A DNA stretch of 33,978 nt from contig JABFSO010000099.1 in assembly GCA_013140555.1 (NCBI GenBank), positions 1 through 33,978 of the forward strand, written 5' to 3'. Each line of letters starts with the position of its first letter. Within the stretch, counting starts at the first letter, position 1. Made by a program: the position numbers and the translations under genes. Positions 7,803 through 32,397 of the stretch are shown here, piece after piece. Source of the DNA: Cyclobacteriaceae bacterium (GTDB lineage: Bacteria > Bacteroidota > Bacteroidia > Cytophagales > Cyclobacteriaceae). The notes beneath the pieces were generated by a model. The model was not told where the DNA came from. It worked only from the letters and a program-made list of their open reading frames with translations, and searched no databases.

Positions 7803-9824
7803 TTAATCTCCTTTAGGGGCAGCTTCAAAAACTTCAATCTCCGTTCTGCGATTTACTTCGCGCCCACCGGTTTCATCATCATTGGAAACGATGGGCCGCT
7901 CTTCGCCATAGCCAACGGCACGCAGTCGATCGGGGGCAACACCGCGCTGAAGCAAAAACGCCACAACGGATTGTGCACGTTTAAGTGATAGCGCTTTGTT
8001 GGTAGCATCATCGCCTGAGTTATCGGTATGGCCGTTGATTTGAAGTTTGATGAGAGGACTGTTTTCCATCAGGTTAAGAATGCTTTCTAACTCGCCAATG
8101 GATTCCGTTTTGATTTCGGTTTTGCCAACGTCAAAGAAAATGTTTTTCATAACCACCTTCGATCCCACTTCGGCTTTCTGCATAAAAATGCCCGTTTCAA
8201 TTTCTTGAGCGTCCGTAAAGGCAGGCACTTCAAAATTGAGCGAGTTGAATAAGTAGCCGTTTACGGATGTGTTGATTCCATAATTACCACCATGTGGAAT
8301 GATGATTTTAAATTCTCCGGTACTGCTGTTGGAGTATACGCGCTCGATTACTTTGTTTGTTTTGTTGTCCACCAAAATGATCTGCGCCTTCAGCGGCTTA
8401 GCAGATTCTGCGTCTAAAACTTTACCTGATAGTTGCGTAGCGAGCCCCAAATCTTTTTGAAAGCTGATCATCGCATCCACAAATTCATCGCCTATGATTT
8501 CTGCTTCTTTGGTGGTGTCTATCGCTACGGGAACTGCGGCAATTATCTCTTCTTGTTTAGGTGGTGGTGGAGGATCGTGAAATTGCACAAAACAGATGTC
8601 AGAATTGCCAACACCCTCGGGGCGCATGGCACTGAAGTAGCCTCGCTTCTTATCTTTTGATAAATAAAAATAGTTTTCAAATTTAGGTGTGTTGATGGGG
8701 TAGCCTAAGTTGGCAGGCTTCGTCCATTGCCCATTTACCAACTCGCTTTTAAAAATGTCGAAGTCACCTAAGCCCAAATGGCCATCGGATCCAAAATACA
8801 AATGGCCATCCGGATGAATGAAGGGGGCATCCTCATTTCCTTTCGAGTTTATTTTTGGCCCTAGATTTTTTGCTTTGCCCCACTCACCGGTGCGTAGCTT
8901 TTCACTTACGTAGATATCCAATCCTCCATAACCACCTGAGCGATCGCTGGTGAAGTAAAATTTGGTTCCGTCCGGTGATAGACACCCGGATGTTTCCCAC
9001 GAAAGTGTATTTATTTCTTTGCCCATCGATTTGGGTGTACTCCATTTCTCACCATCAAAATCGGATTGATAGATGTCGCCATTGCCTTTTTCGTAATAGA
9101 GAAAAATGGTTTTGCCATCGGGTGTCAGGTAGGTAGCTGCATCGTGAAATTGATCGTTGATTTTATCGCTTAATTTTTGAGGCACCTCCCAGGTTTCTCC
9201 GACCAGATGTGTGCTGAGGATATCTTCAAACAACGTGTTGAATTTTTTATCCCTTTGTAATGAATCGCGCGCAGAAGTAAAAATCAACAGGTCTTCTTTT
9301 TCATTGATGAGGGGCCCGTAGTCTTGAAAGGGTGAGTTGACAGGAAACTCTAAAATCTTGATACTACACAAAAGAGGGTGGCGCATGAGTGAATCGCCTA
9401 AATGACATTGCTGAATTTTGTGCTGCGCTATGGTGGATAATTTTTTATTTTTCTCTTTAAATTTTTTGTAGTGCTCCATCGCTCGACCAAAGTGTGAATT
9501 ACTTTGTAATGCTTCAGCGAGGTAATAATCGATATCAGGATCTACGTTCGGGTTTTTTCGGTAGGCTTCTTCCAGATAAGGAAGTGCTTGTGCCTCTTGC
9601 CCTGCAGAGAGATAGGTTTGACCAATTTTTAATTGGATTGTAGCATCGCCCGGCAACTTAGATTGTGCCAGTGTGTAATTTTCTAATGCTTGCCGATAGT
9701 CGGCTTTCGCATAAAATTTATCGCCTTTTTCGATCAGTGATTTCGCATCCTGACCATACAAAACATAGCCAGAAAGAAATAACGAAACAAAAAAGGTTAT
9801 ACAGGTGGGGGTGTTCCTGTTCAT
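7803..9824 (-). CDS. PorE-like OmpA family protein (TPR, PD40 propeller, carboxypeptidase-regulatory domain, OmpA C-terminal domain)
   Basis: 673 residues from the ATG at 9824. A TTG three codons earlier is possible but less likely, because the ATG gives a clean signal peptide (MNRNTPTCITFFVSLFLSG, ending YG/Q). Domains in order: TPR repeats (about 25-125), a WD40-like PD40 propeller with repeats such as LSPDGTKFYFTSDRSGG (about 155-410), a proline linker (PPPPPK), a carboxypeptidase-regulatory Ig-like domain (about 460-545), and an OmpA C-terminal peptidoglycan-binding domain (about 560-670) with NGHTDNSGDD and LSLKRAQSV. This is the arrangement of PorE, the T9SS component thought to link the outer-membrane machinery to peptidoglycan. 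PorE itself is a lipoprotein, whereas no lipobox is seen here, so this may be a paralogue. It sits 35 bases after hutF. Confidence 0.85.
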   Translation of the reverse strand: MNRNTPTCITFFVSLFLSGYVLYGQDAKSLIEKGDKFYAKADYRQALENYTLAQSKLPGDATIQLKIGQTYLSAGQEAQALPYLEEAYRKNPNVDPDIDYYLAEALQSNSHFGRAMEHYKKFKEKNKKLSTIAQHKIQQCHLGDSLMRHPLLCSIKILEFPVNSPFQDYGPLINEKEDLLIFTSARDSLQRDKKFNTLFEDILSTHLVGETWEVPQKLSDKINDQFHDAATYLTPDGKTIFLYYEKGNGDIYQSDFDGEKWSTPKSMGKEINTLSWETSGCLSPDGTKFYFTSDRSGGYGGLDIYVSEKLRTGEWGKAKNLGPKINSKGNEDAPFIHPDGHLYFGSDGHLGLGDFDIFKSELVNGQWTKPANLGYPINTPKFENYFYLSKDKKRGYFSAMRPEGVGNSDICFVQFHDPPPPPKQEEIIAAVPVAIDTTKEAEIIGDEFVDAMISFQKDLGLATQLSGKVLDAESAKPLKAQIILVDNKTNKVIERVYSNSSTGEFKIIIPHGGNYGINTSVNGYLFNSLNFEVPAFTDAQEIETGIFMQKAEVGSKVVMKNIFFDVGKTEIKTESIGELESILNLMENSPLIKLQINGHTDNSGDDATNKALSLKRAQSVVAFLLQRGVAPDRLRAVGYGEERPIVSNDDETGGREVNRRTEIEVFEAAPKGD

Positions 9825-9859
9825 AACCTGCAATATAAATAGAAATGATATGCCGTTGG

Positions 9860-11964: not shown

Positions 11965-12768
11965 TCAGCGCAAGGTATCTATCAATTTCTTCAGGACACG
12001 CTTCAATACGAATTGCATTTTGCCTGCCCGGTCTTCATGGAATTGCGTTTCCGAATCGTCCATATAATTTACTTTACTCATTTCCAATTGCAATGCATGT
12101 CGTTGTAAATGCGGTTGGCCATAGTGGCGAGTGATGTATCCTCCTTTGAATGGATAATTGTGACTAAATGAATAGTCAGCACTTTGTAATGTTTGTACAG
12201 CATCTGAAATGATTTCTGCGGAGGCAGAAGTGCCATCGGCATTGCCCAGAATTAGATCCGGAAATTTCTCTGCGTGAATCGAAGGCACAAATTGTCGAAT
12301 GGAGTGACAATCCCACAGCAATACCTTCCCAAATTTTTGGTGCAAGCGATTTAGCTCGCTCTCTAGTTTTTGATGGTAGGGTTGGTAATAGGCAGAAACT
12401 CTTCGGGCCATTTCATTTGGTAAAATTTCTTTTCGCTCATCGCGATAGATTAGTTCACCTAAAAAGTTGGTTGTGGGGCACAAGCCGGTGATCACGCGAC
12501 CATCGGAATAGAGTGGTTTACTTTGTGGATCGCGATTAAGATCGATTACCCATCGGCTATAGTTAGCCGTAATCAGTGTGATTCCAAGCGAAGGTGCAAA
12601 GCCATAAAGTTTATCTACGAACCAATCGGTGTCATCCAGCGATTGAAGAAACTCGGATTTGTATTCGTCTTTTAGCTCTTGAGGAAACAATGTACCGCAG
12701 TGTGGCACACTCAGAAGGATAGATACTTCTGGTTGTGTGGCAGCAAAGAGATTGTAAACCGGATTCAT
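11965..12768 (-). CDS. hutG: N-formylglutamate amidohydrolase (deformylase)
   Basis: 267 residues. It converts N-formyl-L-glutamate to L-glutamate and formate, the last step of the HutF/HutG histidine route. Family motifs: SVPHCGTLFP near the N-terminus (His23, metal binding), DDTDWFVDKLY, WVIDLNRDP and LLWDCHSIRQFVPS; the C-terminal part GGYITRHYGQP followed by LQLEMSKVNYMD is also typical. The start overlaps the stop of the preceding 95-residue gene as ATGA, which implies translational coupling. Together with hutF downstream it shows that this organism uses the formylglutamate branch rather than formiminoglutamase. Confidence 0.92.
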   Translation of the reverse strand: MNPVYNLFAATQPEVSILLSVPHCGTLFPQELKDEYKSEFLQSLDDTDWFVDKLYGFAPSLGITLITANYSRWVIDLNRDPQSKPLYSDGRVITGLCPTTNFLGELIYRDERKEILPNEMARRVSAYYQPYHQKLESELNRLHQKFGKVLLWDCHSIRQFVPSIHAEKFPDLILGNADGTSASAEIISDAVQTLQSADYSFSHNYPFKGGYITRHYGQPHLQRHALQLEMSKVNYMDDSETQFHEDRAGKMQFVLKRVLKKLIDTLR

Positions 12769-13052
12769 TTTTTATTTGAAGAGGCTTCTTTAGCTGCCAT
12801 GGCTTGTGCGAATGCATAATCTTTTGCTTGGCGTGCTTCTACTAAAGCATTTTGAAGTTCCTGCTTAGCTAGTGCCGATTCTAATCTGCATTTTTCAACT
12901 TCTGTTTTTAATTCAAGGGCAATCCCTTGTTCCATTTTTGCAGCAGTTTTATTGACTAATCCATAAAAAAATAATCCAACATTTGCGATATGCGAAATCA
13001 CAAGGGCACTTATCAAAACCCGAGACTTGTTATGGTTTGTTTGATCCATCAT
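12765..13052 (-). CDS. Small single-pass membrane protein with coiled coil, unknown function
   Basis: 95 residues. A polar N-terminus is followed by one hydrophobic segment (VLISALVISHIANVGLFFYG, about residues 11-30) and then a charged alanine-rich helix to the end with heptad-like spacing (EVEKCRLESALAKQELQNAL), predicted as a coiled coil. Its stop overlaps the hutG start by 4 bases, so the two are cotranslated. Nothing in the sequence ties it to histidine catabolism. No family recognised. Confidence 0.65.
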   Translation of the reverse strand: MMDQTNHNKSRVLISALVISHIANVGLFFYGLVNKTAAKMEQGIALELKTEVEKCRLESALAKQELQNALVEARQAKDYAFAQAMAAKEASSNKK

Positions 13053-17937: not shown

Positions 17938-20475
17938 ATGGAAATAGAAAATACCACCTCCGGTAATAAGGATCATGATCAATCCAAGCGATTTCTGACA
18001 GGCTATGTTTTACTGATCGTGTCATCAATTGTTTATGTTATTGTAGAAAACATCAATATCGAGAAGCTACAATCTTCGTTTTCTTTGTTTGTAGTTCACT
18101 ATGTGATTGCTATCGCCTATTTGTTATACCTGTATCACCATAACGAGTTTGGCATCATGAAGAGCTTTCAAAAAAAGACGATTGACCGAACCATTATCCT
18201 AACAAATCTTTTTCTGATTAGTGCATACTCGTTAAACAGAGATATTGCAGTGTTTGAAGATTCGGTAGAATGGTTTTGTGTGTATTTGATTATTTCATCC
18301 ATTGTGCTATTAAGTTTTCGTTTTTTCTCCGATCTGCCCGCATGGGTGAAGCGACTGCAGGCATTTTTCCTCGGCTGCGCTATGGTTTTATACCTTTATA
18401 TGACTTTGTATGTAGTGAACTTCATGCCTGTGGGAGCAATTGGTATGATTGCATTAGGTATTGGTGGCCATATTTTTGTGCCGTTGATTTTGCTGGTGTG
18501 TGGTGTGTTGATCATTCAATTTCGATTTAATAGAACTGAGATAACTTGGTTGGTGGTGGGATCGATTAGTGCGATACTTATTTGTGTTGCGTTTGTGACG
18601 GAGTGGAAAAAGAGAATGAATGCGATTGAAAAATTTGCTAACCAATCGGTTCTCAACCCCCATACAGAATTGCCAATCTGGATTCGTGTGGGGCAAACTA
18701 TTCCGAACGATTGGATTACGCAACGCATTCTTAAATCGGATTTAGTATATAGCACCCGCACGGATCGATGGGACAGCTGGGATTTTATGCCGCGAACGGT
18801 AACTTGGGATGAGGCCCGAAAGCATGACCCGCTCGTATTGCTCGCCAGTTTTAGTTCGACTATTTCACTAAACCGTGAGGAGCGGGTAAACATTCTCAGA
18901 GTACTTTCAGATTCCAGACACCGATCCAACGAGCGTTTGTGGACTGGAAAAGATTTGAGTATCCCTTATATCGTTTCAGATATTGATGTGTATCCACACT
19001 TGCGGTTGGCATACACCGAAAAATATTTCAACATACGCAACTCGGGGCCTGCGCGATGGAATGGCAACACACAAGAAGCGATCTTCACGTTTCAATTGCC
19101 CGAAGGCTCAGTGGTTACTTCACTTTCGTTGTGGATTGAAGGAAAAGAAGAAAAGGCAATTCTCACTTCCAAACAAAAAGCAACCAAAGCATACCAACAG
19201 ATTGTAGGTGTAGAGAGACGCGATCCATCGGTTGTGCATTGGCAAGAAGGTAATACGGTTACGGTGCGCGTTTTCCCTTGCACCATAAACGAAGAGCGAA
19301 AGTTTAAAATTGGGATCACATCTCCTCTCGTTGTGGAAAACGGAAAAACGATTTACAGAAATATTACATTTCAAGGACCAACCGCGAGCCATGCTCAAGA
19401 GGTCATTCGCTTTCGTATGATCGGTGGGGAAGAAGATGCCGTGATTCCTAGTGGATTTGAAAAAGATGATGAAGGATTTTACAGGCGCGAAAGTGCTTAT
19501 GACGCTGAATTTAGTTTAGCGACTTCTACTCAGCCGATTCCTTCCAATAATCAATTTATATTTCAAAATCATCTGTACAAAATAGAAGAATACACTCCGA
19601 TCTATCGGCCACAGATTATTAAAAAACTTTATTTGGATTTAAACAATAGCTGGACAAAAGACGAGCTGGGCGAATTACTCGAGTTTGCAAAGCAGCGGGA
19701 GGTTTTTGTGTATCGCCATGATTCGTTTATTCAATTAACTCAGGAAAATCAGTCGATAGCTTATGAATTAATGAAACGAAACTATTCGCTGTTCCCTTTT
19801 CACCTGATAAAAGATTCGGAACAAAGTTTAGTTATTACCAAAGGTCAAACGGTTTCTCCGCATCTCAGCGACTTTAAGGAAAGTGAATTTGCTAGAGCCA
19901 TGGAAAAATATTTTTCTGATAATCGCAAATGCCTTGTTTATAACTTAGGTGTAGAAACATCCGCTTATGTTCGTTCGCTTCGCGAGTTACGTGCATTTGA
20001 ATTTTTACATGGCTCTATTGACGAATTGATTACATTATTAAATGAAAACAAATTTGTAGCAACTCAAGAAGATAACAGTCAAACCATTATTCACGATGCC
20101 CGGATTGTTATCCGCAAGCAACCGCTAAGTGATACAACCATCAGCAGCAATGCGCCCGATCACTTGGCGCGTTTGTTTGCCTACAACAATGTATTGCGTA
20201 AAGTAGGAAGAAACTATTTCAACGATGACTTCATTAATCAGGATTTAGTAGATGAAGCTTCTACTGCGTATGTCGTTTCTCCTGTGTCGAGTTTAATTGT
20301 ATTAGAAACAGCTAAAGACTACGAACGCTTCGACATCAAAGATAATGACAACAGTCTGAAGAATGCTTCTAAGCAATCGGATGGAGCGGTGCCCGAGCCG
20401 CATGAGTGGGCTTTGATTATTATTGCTCTTTTGGTAGTGCTTTACTTTAAATTCTATCACACACGCTCTTCATGA
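17938..20475 (+). CDS. XrtN-system VIT domain protein with PEP-type C-terminal sorting signal
   Basis: 845 residues. About seven hydrophobic segments occupy residues 20-223. A VIT (inter-alpha-trypsin) domain follows at about 355-485, recognisable from ATKAYQQIVGVERRDPS and NTVTVRVFPCTINEER. The next region looks like a degenerate vWA domain: LYLDLNNSW has D567-x-N569-x-S571 in place of a MIDAS DxSxS, and AYVVSPVSSLIVLET is a block common in VIT/vWA proteins. The C-terminus is a tripartite sorting signal: PEP at 819-821, a hydrophobic helix (WALIIIALLVVLYFKFY) and a short basic end (HTRSS). It matches the family named as the dedicated substrate of exosortase N. The stop overlaps the exosortase start as ATGA. 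Cellular function is unknown. Confidence 0.9.
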   Translation: MEIENTTSGNKDHDQSKRFLTGYVLLIVSSIVYVIVENINIEKLQSSFSLFVVHYVIAIAYLLYLYHHNEFGIMKSFQKKTIDRTIILTNLFLISAYSLNRDIAVFEDSVEWFCVYLIISSIVLLSFRFFSDLPAWVKRLQAFFLGCAMVLYLYMTLYVVNFMPVGAIGMIALGIGGHIFVPLILLVCGVLIIQFRFNRTEITWLVVGSISAILICVAFVTEWKKRMNAIEKFANQSVLNPHTELPIWIRVGQTIPNDWITQRILKSDLVYSTRTDRWDSWDFMPRTVTWDEARKHDPLVLLASFSSTISLNREERVNILRVLSDSRHRSNERLWTGKDLSIPYIVSDIDVYPHLRLAYTEKYFNIRNSGPARWNGNTQEAIFTFQLPEGSVVTSLSLWIEGKEEKAILTSKQKATKAYQQIVGVERRDPSVVHWQEGNTVTVRVFPCTINEERKFKIGITSPLVVENGKTIYRNITFQGPTASHAQEVIRFRMIGGEEDAVIPSGFEKDDEGFYRRESAYDAEFSLATSTQPIPSNNQFIFQNHLYKIEEYTPIYRPQIIKKLYLDLNNSWTKDELGELLEFAKQREVFVYRHDSFIQLTQENQSIAYELMKRNYSLFPFHLIKDSEQSLVITKGQTVSPHLSDFKESEFARAMEKYFSDNRKCLVYNLGVETSAYVRSLRELRAFEFLHGSIDELITLLNENKFVATQEDNSQTIIHDARIVIRKQPLSDTTISSNAPDHLARLFAYNNVLRKVGRNYFNDDFINQDLVDEASTAYVVSPVSSLIVLETAKDYERFDIKDNDNSLKNASKQSDGAVPEPHEWALIIIALLVVLYFKFYHTRSS

Positions 20476-21815
20476 ATTTAAACGTAGCCCTTGAATTTCT
20501 TCGGCAGCCTCATCGCAAGCTTTTGGTACTATTGCTATGCCTTTGTGCGATTGGTGCGGTAGCCGCGTTGCCACTTTGGTATGTAATGACCACCAATTGT
20601 TTGATCGGCCTTTGCCTTGTGCCATTTGTAATTTACACAACAGGCTCTGCAAGGTTCAATGGATTTGCCTTAGCGGGAGTTATTGCTTTTGGAATTTTGT
20701 CGATGATGTATCACCATAAGGTGTTTTACTTTTTAACAGTGGCATTGTTCGTTGTATTCTTACTTGATTTTTTTGTGGGCAAGGTGACGGGATTAATTTA
20801 TTTCCTGATCGCATTCATGTCGCCCGTGTTTTATCAGGTGTCTGTTATTTTGGGTTTCCCGATTCGTTTGCTGCTCAGTAGTTGGACTGGCTTCATTTTA
20901 AAGTCAGCGGGAATGCAAGTCGAAGTGCTTGGTAATATGATCTGGATTAATGGCACTGATTTTTCGGTTGACGAAGCTTGCATGGGTTTGAATATGCTGG
21001 TGGTTTCGTTGTTGCTCTCCGTATTTATGATGGCGCAGTGCCTTCGATCTCAGAAAAGAGATATGAATTTTATCTATATGATATTATTCTTCATCATGGT
21101 TTTTATGCTTACGGTTCTGTCCAATATGATGCGCATCATATTATTGGTCATGTTTCAGCTCCTTCCCAATAATCCTTGGCACGAAGTGGTGGGAATACTT
21201 TGCTTATTGGCTTATGTACTTATTCCGGTTTACTTTTTAAGTAGGTGGTTATCGGCACGAGTCGGAGCGCTAGTTTCTGATGCAGGTAATCGTGTTATGA
21301 TTTCGCGAACTCAAAAGAGTCTAATGATCGTGATGGCTTTATTTGTAGTGTGCTGTGGTTTTGCGTTGAATCCGGATCGCAAAGAAGCAGCAATTGAACA
21401 TGCCAACGTGGCTTACCACCAATTGCCGATTGAAAATATGCCGGGAGGAATATCAAAAATAACAACTACTGATCTGTTGTTGTATGTAAAGCCGATTCCG
21501 GATTTCTTTTCGATGGAGCACACTCCGTTGCTTTGCTGGAAGGGGAGTGGCTACGAATTTAAAAGCATTCGAAAGGAGGTTGCGGCCAATTATGAAGTGT
21601 ATCGTGGCGTACTGAAAAAGGGCAATGATTATTTGTACACCGCGTGGTGGTACTTTAATGGCACCAACTCTACCACCGATCAATTTGCCTGGCGAACAGA
21701 TATGCTCAAGGGAGCCAACCGCTATTGCCTCGTCAATATTACTTCGAAGGAGGAAAAAAAGTTGAATGAGTATGTAAAAGAGATTTTAGAATCCAAAATT
21801 CTTAAGATTAATTAG
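20472..21815 (+). CDS. xrtN: Exosortase N with EpsI-like C-terminal domain
   Basis: 447 residues. The N-terminal 260 or so residues form a multi-pass transmembrane domain holding the exosortase catalytic set: Cys170 in DEACMGLNM, Arg221 in SNMMRIIL and His237 in PWHEVVG. It should cleave the PEP-type C-terminal signal of the VIT protein encoded just upstream and transfer or release the product at the membrane. After one more hydrophobic segment (residues about 278-296) comes a soluble domain of about 145 residues with HTPLLCWKGSGYEF (Cys355), resembling EpsI, a partner commonly encoded with or fused to exosortases. Translationally coupled to its substrate by a 4-base overlap. The next gene converges, only 7 bases away. 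Confidence 0.9.
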   Translation: MNLNVALEFLRQPHRKLLVLLLCLCAIGAVAALPLWYVMTTNCLIGLCLVPFVIYTTGSARFNGFALAGVIAFGILSMMYHHKVFYFLTVALFVVFLLDFFVGKVTGLIYFLIAFMSPVFYQVSVILGFPIRLLLSSWTGFILKSAGMQVEVLGNMIWINGTDFSVDEACMGLNMLVVSLLLSVFMMAQCLRSQKRDMNFIYMILFFIMVFMLTVLSNMMRIILLVMFQLLPNNPWHEVVGILCLLAYVLIPVYFLSRWLSARVGALVSDAGNRVMISRTQKSLMIVMALFVVCCGFALNPDRKEAAIEHANVAYHQLPIENMPGGISKITTTDLLLYVKPIPDFFSMEHTPLLCWKGSGYEFKSIRKEVAANYEVYRGVLKKGNDYLYTAWWYFNGTNSTTDQFAWRTDMLKGANRYCLVNITSKEEKKLNEYVKEILESKILKIN

Positions 21816-21822
21816 AAAATAA

Positions 21823-22758
21823 TTAATGCTCTTTTCCTAAACGAAACTTCCAACTAAAATCTAAACTAATCAGATGCTCATAATTGAATTGAGCGAATGG
21901 TTTAATTGTATAGAAATTGGGTCGATAGATTACGCCAATGGAGAAGTGATCACTTAATCGATAGTATCCATTTAAAATCAACCCAATCGATTCGCTGGAT
22001 TTACTTATTGTGAAAGTAGAAGATGGTAGGTTATTGACAGTTCGGTCACTCGAAAAAAGCCACGTGTTTTTGGAATAGTGTAATCCGTAGCCAATAGAAA
22101 AGTCTTTAAACTGAAAGTTGTCTGTAATCGAGCCATAAACAGTTGACAACACCTCGTAGTCTCCGTATATATCAATAGCCGCAACGATTGGAATATAAAC
22201 ATCCATATTGCCGCTAATGGTGCCGCTGACAAACTTATTTGATTTATAATAATGATCTAGGCCGAGTGAAATTCCCCAGAATCCCGTATTCGATTTTGTC
22301 GGTTGCCCGGAAGGTTTTACATAGAAGCTGTTTACCCAAGGAAAAGATAATCTCCAATAAGTGGAGCCCTTCTGAAAAGGAGCAAAGCGATCAGGCTTTT
22401 TATTTGTCGAGTTGAAATTTAAGTAGATGTTCTTTCTGTAGGTATATCTTTTTTCGTTCGTATCCCAAATAAAGCCAAGACCATAGGTAAAAACATTTGC
22501 GTAATAGTTGAAAGAGTATTTTGGCTTTAGATAGTAAACTTTGCTAACGCTATCGGTAGCTGCAGTTATGGCAAGCACCGAATCTTTTCTCAACACATTA
22601 ATTTTTGTTTTTTGATGAACCCAATACTCTGTTCCCTCAACCGATAGTTTGGTTGGTCTACTGGAATAAATTTTAATGGAAGTAGTTGATTCATTAAACA
22701 CACGCGCACATCCACTTAATCCTAGTAGTAAGATGATACCAGCAACTCCAATTCTCAT
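21823..22758 (-). CDS. Putative outer-membrane lipoprotein with beta-barrel-like C-terminal part
   Basis: 311 residues. MRIGVAGIILLLGLSGC is a lipoprotein signal with a canonical LSGC lipobox. Residues about 25-75 (TSIKIYSSRPTKLSVEGTEYWV) resemble a PEGA-like or stalk domain, followed by alternating aromatic beta strands (WGISLGLDHYY, SIGYGLHYSKNTW, SIGVIYRPNFY) ending in LDFSWKF, as in small outer-membrane barrels. No named family recognised. Its start overlaps the tag stop as ATGA, so it is translated from the tag transcript, although no functional link with alkylation repair is evident. It converges on xrtN with 7 bases between the stops. Confidence 0.7.
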   Translation of the reverse strand: MRIGVAGIILLLGLSGCARVFNESTTSIKIYSSRPTKLSVEGTEYWVHQKTKINVLRKDSVLAITAATDSVSKVYYLKPKYSFNYYANVFTYGLGFIWDTNEKRYTYRKNIYLNFNSTNKKPDRFAPFQKGSTYWRLSFPWVNSFYVKPSGQPTKSNTGFWGISLGLDHYYKSNKFVSGTISGNMDVYIPIVAAIDIYGDYEVLSTVYGSITDNFQFKDFSIGYGLHYSKNTWLFSSDRTVNNLPSSTFTISKSSESIGLILNGYYRLSDHFSIGVIYRPNFYTIKPFAQFNYEHLISLDFSWKFRLGKEH

Positions 22759-25384: not shown

Positions 25385-26215
25385 TTAGCTTTTGCCTTTG
25401 ATCTTTTTAGCAGTTTTCGATTCCGGCAAATAATTATTTGATGTTATAACTTTTTCTCCCGTTTTTAATTCTAGCGCTTTTCTAGCGTCACCGGCAATTT
25501 TACCACCCTGTATAGCTACTACTTGATTTTCTACGAACCCCTTCGGATTTCTTGTTTTAACAATGGCAGTAGTAGACGCTTCTCCTAACATTGAGAATAT
25601 TAATTCTAGATCGGTCATATGATCTCTTAAATTTTCACGCTTTAATTTTTTTAGTTTTTTATAATCAGAAGGTGTTAATCCAAATGTGGCCTTAGAAATT
25701 TCAGCTGTTAGAATCGAATACTCTTTTTGTTCTTTTATACCTCTGTTTTTCCATTCTTCAGTTAATTCCTCGCGAATGGCGATACTCCTCATCCTTTTCT
25801 CTATCCAATCATCCGAATAGCCCTTTAGCTTATAAAGTTCTCTGGTTCTTTGCGCTGCTAACTCTGGATTTTCTATTTCATCAAGGCGATCAGCACCTAC
25901 TTGGGCCAGCCATAATTTGAACGGTTCCGCTTTTGGTGATGGTATTGATTGAATGATCCGTAACAGACCTTTGGCATTCGAACAATTCAATTTTTGTTTA
26001 CCACCTTTCGTATCGATTAAAAGGGGGGTGACAATTTGTCCCCACCCTTGAGAAAGCTGCTCATCTCGCTTTCTCATTTTTTTTAAATAATCGGATGGAT
26101 TTAGACTATCTGTTAAAACTTGAATTACATCAGTCACGACAAAATACCATTGTTGACTTTCCTCATCCCAAACGGAACGTATCTCTTTGCTTTGAAAAAG
26201 TTTGATATTGCTCAT
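25385..26215 (-). CDS. BRO-N/DinD-like DNA-damage-type protein
   Basis: 276 residues from the ATG at 26215; an in-frame TTG two codons earlier is less likely. The N-terminal part (IRSVWDEESQQWYFVVTDV, then NCSNAKGLLRIIQSIPS) is a BRO-N/antirepressor-type domain. The C-terminal half (GLTPSDYKKLKKLKRENLRD, DLELIFSMLGEASTTAI, and GGKIAGDARKALELKTG) resembles DinD, an SOS-induced inhibitor of RecA-mediated strand exchange in E. coli. It is upstream of the DnaQ/GIY-YIG nuclease in the same direction with a 12-base gap. BRO-N genes are common in phages, but no other phage gene is near. The link to damage response is an inference from the neighbours and the DinD likeness. Confidence 0.8.
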   Translation of the reverse strand: MSNIKLFQSKEIRSVWDEESQQWYFVVTDVIQVLTDSLNPSDYLKKMRKRDEQLSQGWGQIVTPLLIDTKGGKQKLNCSNAKGLLRIIQSIPSPKAEPFKLWLAQVGADRLDEIENPELAAQRTRELYKLKGYSDDWIEKRMRSIAIREELTEEWKNRGIKEQKEYSILTAEISKATFGLTPSDYKKLKKLKRENLRDHMTDLELIFSMLGEASTTAIVKTRNPKGFVENQVVAIQGGKIAGDARKALELKTGEKVITSNNYLPESKTAKKIKGKS

Positions 26216-26274
26216 TTTCAAATTTATTTAAAATTAGGCATTTAAAATTTGCCGATATTTCCTAAAAAAAGCTG

Positions 26275-31213: not shown

Positions 31214-31389
31214 AATAATTTTCGATTGAACCACGAATGTCGACTTTTTACTTTCACTTTCGCAAATCTTAAAGTGCGGAAATGAGTGCTATAACACCTT
31301 TTCGGTAAGTCATCGTTTTCTTTGGCTGAATGCAATACGAATTGCTTCGGAATTTGCGTTTCTTTGCGGCTTCTTACGATCCTATGAGT

Positions 31390-32397
31390 ATGAACAAATT
31401 TGCTTTAGCCATTCTTGCCATTCCCTTTTTATTCGCTCAGTGTTCATCTGATCAAAAAGAAGAATGCGCCTTTCAGCCTGAAACGCACAACATCAAAGTA
31501 GAAATAGCTTTTCAATCATTGGAAGATTCCATTCCTCAATTTCAAAACAAGCAACAAGTAGTTGATTTCTTCTCACGTCACACCGTGATGCGTGATGTGT
31601 TTTTCAACCGCTCGGCTTATCCGGATGATTCTGTTTTTATCAACGAATTGTATCGCAGATTTTCCAACCCCGCATTCGACACCTTGTTGATGGAAACCAA
31701 ACGCGTTTTTGGCGATGGTTCAGAACTAAAAAAAGAATTTACGCAAGCATTTACCAACCTCAAATACTATTACCCTGAAATTCAGATCCCTAAAATTGAG
31801 ACCGTAATTACCGGTATGGAGAGTGACTTGTTCGTCAGCGACTCGCTGGTGATTGTAGGTCTCGATTATTTTTTGGGTCATGAGGCGAAGTATCAGCCAA
31901 ACATGTACGAATACATGTTGCGCAGATACACCAAACAATTTGTAGTGCCATCCACTATGTTGTTGTACGGCATTGACGGTCGCATCAATGCGGTAAATCC
32001 GGAAGACAAAACCGTGCTGGCTGATATGATTGCGTATGGCAAAGCGTATTACTTCGCCAAGCAAATGTTGCCTTGTGTGCCCGACAGTGTTTTTATCGGA
32101 TACACTTCAAAAGAAATCAATGGCGCGCGCGAAAACACCGACATCATCTGGAAGCACTTGGTAGAGCGTGAGGTGTTTTTTAACACCGCCAAAAACATCA
32201 AACAGAAATACATTGACGAGCGCCCCACTACCATCGAAATTGGCGACCAATGCCCCGGTCGAATTGGCGTGTGGATTGGCTGGCAAATCGTATCCGAATT
32301 CGCCAAGAAGAATGCGCAATACTCTTCGCTGCCAAAGTTGATGCAAGTTTCTAACCCTGAACAGGTGCTGAAAGGCTCCAAGTTTAGACCCAACTGA
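31390..32397 (+). CDS. gldB: Gliding motility lipoprotein GldB
   Basis: 335 residues from the ATG at 31390; ATGs at 31384 and 31330 are alternatives, but this one gives a normal signal sequence (MNKFALAILAIPFLFAQC). The Cys after AQ would be lipidated, although Gln before Cys is unusual for a lipobox. Family blocks: YYPEIQIPKIETVITG, GLDYFLGHEAKYQP, MLRRYTKQFVVPSTMLLYG, and PGRIGVWIGWQIV near the C-terminus. GldB is required for gliding motility and type IX secretion in flavobacteria, with its precise role still unclear. gldC, the usual neighbour, is absent; feoA follows about 105 bases later. Confidence 0.92.
   Translation: MNKFALAILAIPFLFAQCSSDQKEECAFQPETHNIKVEIAFQSLEDSIPQFQNKQQVVDFFSRHTVMRDVFFNRSAYPDDSVFINELYRRFSNPAFDTLLMETKRVFGDGSELKKEFTQAFTNLKYYYPEIQIPKIETVITGMESDLFVSDSLVIVGLDYFLGHEAKYQPNMYEYMLRRYTKQFVVPSTMLLYGIDGRINAVNPEDKTVLADMIAYGKAYYFAKQMLPCVPDSVFIGYTSKEINGARENTDIIWKHLVEREVFFNTAKNIKQKYIDERPTTIEIGDQCPGRIGVWIGWQIVSEFAKKNAQYSSLPKLMQVSNPEQVLKGSKFRPN

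Follow-up and report, generated by a model that had tools for sequence, protein, structure and literature searches.

Dedicated systems for VIT-domain proteins

A single VIT-VWA protein family is reported to carry LPXTG, GlyGly-CTERM or PEP-CTERM tails in the accessible portion of the work that defined "dedicated systems" (Haft and Varghese, 2011; PMC3237569), and exosortase N (XrtN) is already catalogued together with a VIT-domain target in NCBIfam (TIGR04476 for the enzyme and TIGR04477 for the target), as the original prediction for the present locus had stated. The locus lies on a contig of a Cyclobacteriaceae bacterium (JABFSO010000099.1, C388 in our numbering; genome G000, 4.78 Mb in 498 contigs, 94% complete), of which the whole analysed stretch of 33,978 nucleotides is termed the window here. 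Judged from its sequence, the gene pair in this window belongs to the catalogued XrtN type of dedicated exosortase systems. The upstream gene (17938..20475, + strand) encodes the target of 845 amino acids (aa), which scores 902 bits with TIGR04477 (cut-off 250; profile positions 3-817 of 822) and contains a VIT domain (PF08487; residues 375-458, 19060..19311, + strand; 47.4 bits, cut-off 26.5). The downstream gene (20472..21815, + strand) encodes the 447-aa XrtN, which scores 304.9 bits with TIGR04476 (cut-off 200) and 53.6 bits with PF09721 (Exosortase_EpsH). Both open reading frames are complete and lie on the same strand, the start of the second overlapping the stop of the first as ATGA at 20472-20475; the overlap, positions and strand had been predicted exactly. 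Gene order and tail are the same as in the catalogued system, with both proteins far above the cut-offs.

The sister system XrtK/MSEP-CTERM (TIGR04287/TIGR04286), on which no paper turned up in the open-licence literature, likewise comprises a VIT target with a Glu-Pro tail, and the VIT part of the window target reaches 80.7 bits against TIGR04286. Nevertheless, this lies below the cut-off of 150, the tail reads GAVPEPHEW instead of MSEP, and the window enzyme scores 31 bits with the XrtK profile (cut-off 55). Three loci (L048, L049 and L261) encode VIT proteins with MSEP-type tails, each approximately 940 aa long and presumably a target of exosortase K. At others (L038, L040, L044, L050, L053, L054 and L056), VIT proteins of other Bacteroidota carry a YPNP motif towards the end of the available sequence, which we take to be as in type IX secretion tails.

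The dedicated Gram-negative sortase (TIGR03788), as far as the available text of PMC3237569 goes, likewise serves one VIT-class target per enzyme; however, that enzyme is unrelated to XrtN, and the window target, which lacks a Pfam match to VWA, possesses a membrane domain. The classic exosortase/PEP-CTERM system (EpsH), according to the accessible part of PMC1569441, shares the PF09721 superfamily, the tripartite tail and an EpsI-type domain fused to some enzymes. It is characterised there by numerous substrates, by signal peptides and by the presence of exopolysaccharide genes, whereas the window holds one substrate with a membrane domain and none such among the genes scanned. A signal peptide is said always to be present in PEP-CTERM proteins in the available text of PMC3237569, the exception in that of PMC1569441 being one three-member family of membrane proteins. 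For a further exosortase, XrtF of Flavobacterium johnsoniae, a colonisation and biofilm phenotype is given in the accessible portion of PMC10936215.

Co-occurrence of enzyme and target

The original prediction was accompanied by a proposal to profile the co-occurrence of the two families, and the outcome bears the pairing out. Across a phylum sample of 395 genomes, enzyme and target exceeded the curated cut-offs in the same 5 genomes and were adjacent in all five; sub-threshold matches were set aside (XrtN in 26 further genomes, all of one family of the sample; the target in 71 further ones, mostly through the VIT part only). An order sample of 390 genomes yielded the enzyme in 34, the target in 34 and both in 32, the two genomes with the enzyme and without TIGR04477 being G428 and G472. 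Furthermore, at the best 80 of 242 target relatives from a scan of named genomes, XrtN lay on the same strand as the target in 78 cases, overlapping it or at most 100 bp downstream in 74 and at a distance of 230-1505 bp in four, with the exact four-base overlap at 19 of the 80. One of the two loci where no XrtN was seen, L078, is cut off by the end of its contig. Under the title Williamsia (Actinomycetota), record L088 bears an XrtN pair that falls inside Chitinophagaceae in the tree, and the assembly is probably mislabelled or mixed.

One sorting tail per genome

The C-terminal tail of the target (residues 816-845; 20383..20472, + strand) consists of GAVPEPHEW, a hydrophobic helix and an end that is only weakly basic, which agrees in outline with the predicted succession of PEP, hydrophobic helix and basic tail. 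The motif PEPxEW is kept in all 79 complete related tails. Retrieval partly used the motif GAVPEPHE, so conservation is biased in the 80 loci and in the tails of the profile; in a set retrieved independently of the tail motif (31 loci found by a VIT pattern, 30 of them with a complete tail), PEPxEW is likewise kept in 30/30.

A profile of 63 related tails was run on 25 genomes with XrtN, admitting matches up to E = 10, and each of the 25 gave one strong match (E 7.5e-20 to 1.6e-15). The single strong match in the genome of the window has an E-value of 8.8e-20, the next being 1.6 or worse and confined to the hydrophobic part; a genome-wide search for other such tails, suggested along with the original prediction, thus returned the target as its sole strong match. 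The next-best match among the 25 genomes (G413, E 0.0089) lies out of frame within a different gene and reads PEPSEW, and a weak match in G412 (E 0.028) contains no PEP. A second scan took in 80 genomes from the order and from the genus, namely 34 with XrtN, six chosen for the target alone and 40 controls. A strong match (E<=1.8e-9) was present in 34/34 XrtN genomes of the order sample, in five of the six genomes chosen for the target (none in G442) and in 0/40 controls, of which two (G796 and G812) had been screened for the target and not for the enzyme. A weak match in the control G415 (E 0.012) reads QQAMSEPGDWLLLL, a tail of the MSEP type that belongs to the sister system XrtK. The counts of the two scans are not additive, since certain genomes appear under two designations (G409/G773 and G410/G702 give matches at identical coordinates; L069 is a locus of G839, and L070 one of G803).

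At E<=1, XrtN is the only exosortase found by PF09721 in the genome of the window. A second, short exosortase is present in 7 of the 25 XrtN genomes at E<=0.001, and the five that were scanned are XrtF (4) and XrtY (1), i.e., other known exosortase systems. The generic PEP-CTERM model PF07589 gave nothing over its cut-off in the own genome and in 5 of 5 XrtN genomes, which is no independent test because PF07589 misses the XrtN tail too. Taken together, the notion of one enzyme and one substrate per genome is well supported by these sequence searches. That XrtN has further substrates, with tails unlike GAVPEPHEW that the profile missed, is quite unlikely: the profile was built from targets and PF07589 overlooks even these, so unlike tails would escape, but across 25 genomes searched at E<=10 the out-of-frame stretch in G413 was the sole other match below 0.01, and the remaining weak matches lie largely over the hydrophobic part.

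The same tail on a different protein

A protein of the TIGR04477 family is not the partner in every genome. In 2 of the 34 XrtN genomes (G428 and G472), the tail is borne by a different VIT-VWA protein: in G428 it reads ATPEPHEW on a 653-aa protein whose gene precedes XrtN by 1.8 kb, separated from it by two open reading frames, and in G472 it reads AVPEPEEW on a 700-aa protein encoded on contig C46, with XrtN on contig C6. The two tail-bearing proteins are 40% identical to each other and reach 427.5 and 311.9 bits, respectively, with the sortase target family TIGR03788, below its cut-off of 551.65. When the G472 protein was compared pairwise with the window target, the tail alone was common to both. 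A hydrophobic N-terminal segment and a C-terminal helix were called in the G472 protein by hydropathy scan; at the same threshold neither was called in the G428 protein, and its secretion was therefore deduced from the N-terminal sequence. The enzymes of both genomes exceed the XrtN cut-off, at 301 and 287 bits, and fall inside the XrtN tree on long branches, where their joining may be false.

Sharing of the tail alone with an otherwise different protein fits a tail-reading enzyme, and the sequences suggest that a partner of XrtN is marked by its tail and not by the remainder of the protein. The "closed" one-enzyme, one-substrate circuit of the original prediction is well supported, also in the genome of the window with its one exosortase and one strong tail, but the identity of the partner varies between genomes. 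The occurrence of the XrtN tail on two bodies extends the mixed-tail VIT-VWA family of PMC3237569. It also bears on the proposition that the two genes are mere neighbours with no enzyme-substrate relation. No biochemical proof of such a relation was found in the literature searched, but enzyme and target co-occur (in the same 5 of 395 genomes and, shared, in 32 of 390), and the tail accompanies the enzyme even on another body and another contig and is missing from all 40 controls, which makes mere adjacency very improbable.

Architecture of the target

The target was modelled with AlphaFold2 from an alignment of 64 sequences (mean predicted local distance difference test score (pLDDT) 88, predicted template modelling score 0.80). 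The model places seven helices within residues 9-239, followed by a beta-rich ectodomain; a hydropathy scan calls six N-terminal hydrophobic segments. The target is thus predicted to be an integral membrane protein with six to seven N-terminal helices, its membrane domain spanning approximately residues 19-220 (17992..18597, + strand). Across the aligned targets, four to eight hydrophobic segments precede the VIT domain in 64/64, and the stretch from the VIT domain to the tail is free of them in 63/64. At the C-terminus, residues 814-819 are modelled as a low-confidence linker and residues 821-843 as a helix.

The best match of the model among solved structures is ITIH1, an inter-alpha-inhibitor heavy chain with a VIT-VWA-hybrid fold (PDB 6FPY/6FPZ; E 4.1e-13 over 590 columns, low TM-score of 0.30/0.39, 11% identity, root-mean-square deviation 10.3 A), the next being M1 aminopeptidases at E about 1e-6. 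The periplasmic part is tentatively predicted, by its modelled fold, to resemble such a heavy chain. In a viral library, ITIH-like giant-virus proteins match the target (best E 2.8e-17), which repeats the fold result only. The metal-binding motif usual in VWA domains (metal ion-dependent adhesion site, MIDAS) has Asp where the target has Lys635. In the VWA-like region of the model (approximately residues 560-705, with borders drawn from the model; 19615..20052, + strand), D567 (64/64), N569 (62/64) and W572 (64/64) are kept in the aligned targets, Ser571 is found in 38/64, and Lys635 occurs in 61/64, so that no intact MIDAS is present. In ITIH heavy chains, according to the available text of PMC7170535, a pro-domain is lost from the C-terminus, and the newly formed end is ester-linked to chondroitin sulfate. 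The parallel with the window target is an analogy and not evidence; the two differ in the degenerate metal site, and no linked sugar is known for the target.

The enzyme

The original prediction had placed Cys170, Arg221 and His237 of XrtN in a multi-pass membrane domain. The numbering proved correct, and each of these residues of the presumed exosortase active site is invariant in the 79 XrtN sequences aligned: Cys170, the presumed nucleophile (codon TGC, 20979..20981), Arg221 (21132..21134) and His237 (21180..21182), all on the + strand. N218 is likewise invariant (79/79). Nine hydrophobic segments were counted in XrtN by hydropathy scan, and its structure model has a mean pLDDT of 91.

The C-terminal domain of XrtN (approximately residues 305-447; 21384..21812, + strand) looks EpsI-like on the weak evidence of family members: DUF3485 matches it weakly in 7 of 35 (best 6.8e-4) and EpsI_fam in 3 of 35 (best 0.0027), and the domain of the window enzyme itself matches neither. 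Its residues H350 and C355 are kept in 78 of 79 sequences, the remaining one having a gap. Naming this domain by structure was tried and abandoned, as the top PDB matches were SciW, DcrB, EagT6 and PsbP-like proteins (best E 0.025, none at E<=0.001). SciW, a lead only, is described in PDB titles as a chaperone solved with a transmembrane segment.

Proposed mechanism and its alternatives

We consider it likely that the pair is a dedicated XrtN system in which the target is anchored in the inner membrane and its tail is cut by XrtN. The target would be made as an inner-membrane protein with N-terminal helices, a periplasmic part comprising VIT and degenerate VWA regions, a short and flexible GAVPEPHEW linker and a last helix ending with cytoplasmic basic residues. 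XrtN, expressed from the same operon, would recognise the linker and the last helix, and Cys170, assisted by Arg221 and His237, would attack the target chain beside PEP; both the catalysis and the site of cleavage are presumptive. The tail would be removed and the remainder of the target would stay in the membrane via its N-terminal domain. Since the target is anchored by its N-terminal helices, tail cutting should not release it from the membrane, and removal of the tail would instead free or re-attach the C-terminus of the ectodomain. The role of the pair may lie in envelope upkeep.

Several observations weigh against this account. The hydrophobic segment after PEP was called in just 34 of 64 relatives at the hydropathy threshold used, and PF07589 fails to recognise the tail of the XrtN target. 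The target is present and XrtN undetected in G442 and G593, both of which are 84% complete, the former being a fragmented assembly and the latter having its target at a contig end; at L130, no XrtN is encoded in the 3.7 kb downstream of the target. No paper on experiments with XrtN turned up in the open-licence literature. Finally, passage of an acyl-enzyme to an acceptor is a less certain step than the cleavage itself.

This last step separates the possible fates of the cut target. XrtN may be a plain protease, hydrolysis of the tail allowing the anchored ectodomain to move or change shape with nothing attached, and this remains a tentative though serious alternative. The N-terminal helices already anchor the target, so a second anchor would be unneeded, and no polysaccharide-synthesis genes were found among the window families scanned. 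Nevertheless, both the tail with its three parts and the Cys/Arg/His set are typical of a transpeptidase-like class, and the tail-bearing body of G472, and probably that of G428, has no membrane domain, so that plain hydrolysis would release it. At the other extreme, XrtN could be a tail-specific transferase joining the C-terminus of a VIT-VWA protein to an envelope glycan or lipid, by analogy with ITIH and chondroitin sulfate, an idea that we regard as unlikely. Were it true, the product in most lineages would be an inner-membrane protein with a covalently bound envelope molecule, the tail having passed to a secreted VIT-VWA protein in two, and VIT-VWA bodies would be a general chassis paired with sortase, exosortase or rhombosortase according to which of these C-terminal linking enzymes a bacterium has.

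Genomic setting and patchy distribution

Genes near the pair in the window encode CBM9-like, PorE-like type IX secretion and sortilin-like proteins, a GH3 glycoside hydrolase, an S13 carboxypeptidase, Tag, RecX and GldB. The Pfam matches of the window genes scanned (all except a 95-aa open reading frame at 12765-13052, in a search confined to the window) include no polysaccharide-synthesis families. The predicted lack of polysaccharide genes nearby thus holds for synthesis, with the qualification that the GH3 and S13 carboxypeptidase genes lie 2-5 kb from the pair. Parts of type IX secretion and gliding machinery surround the pair: a Por secretion tail protein (86-1330, + strand), a TPR-PD40-OmpA protein (7803-9833, - strand), which we take to be of the PorE kind, and GldB (31330-32397, + strand). 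Directly downstream of the pair, a 311-aa protein (21823-22758, - strand) has no Pfam or NCBIfam match; in its place, a DUF3857-transglutaminase-DUF2569 gene for 844 aa is found in the two near relatives L068 and L069, both of which keep CBM9 upstream. A Bro-N domain protein (25385-26221, - strand) is encoded beside an exonuclease gene, and in the near-identical relative L235 only 27 residues match at this position.

The absence of associated neighbours holds for the window lineage but not for the XrtN family elsewhere. At 26 of the 80 related loci, an HTH_34 regulator gene lies upstream of the target, always on the same strand and in 25 cases with a gene for a 221-aa DUF308-like membrane protein. 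At least one gene of a set comprising HTH_34, DUF308-like, 173-aa membrane, DUF1361, DUF4153 and CreD genes is found near 41/80 loci on the same strand but none in the window, and any link of these genes to XrtN would be tentative.

Within the genus, the target gene is patchily distributed (5/62 genomes); XrtN is adjacent in the three genomes in which both genes lie on one contig, and a C-terminal piece of it is present in a fourth (G823). At L236 (G812), about 10 bp separate the CBM9-like gene from the Tag gene, the two genes between which the pair lies in the window, and therefore the pair and one further gene were gained or lost there; such joined flanks were seen in this one of eight relatives without the pair. 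Gain of the pair by transfer is possible, and descent with loss is favoured because the XrtN tree broadly follows taxonomy. Recent arrival of the whole contig from a foreign source was rejected, as a DnaQ/UvrC-like window gene has 84% and 99% matches within the genus and the GC content of the window (42.5%) falls within that of seven other stretches of the own genome (39.9-43.7%).

Significance for exosortase biology

The points that this locus adds to the catalogued system are the membrane architecture of the target, the occurrence of the tail on a second VIT-VWA body, and a patchy target gene with an empty site in one relative. With the target a membrane protein and the tail present on a second kind of VIT protein, the question of what XrtN does is narrowed: the tail would act as the address and the VIT-type body as the cargo, and the system cannot in general serve to set its target free from the membrane. 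The chemistry of exosortases is hard to study because each has a large number of predicted substrates. The XrtN pair, in which a single enzyme faces a single target in a genome that offers no further candidate, would be the simplest system for finding out what is attached by an exosortase to the C-terminus that it frees.

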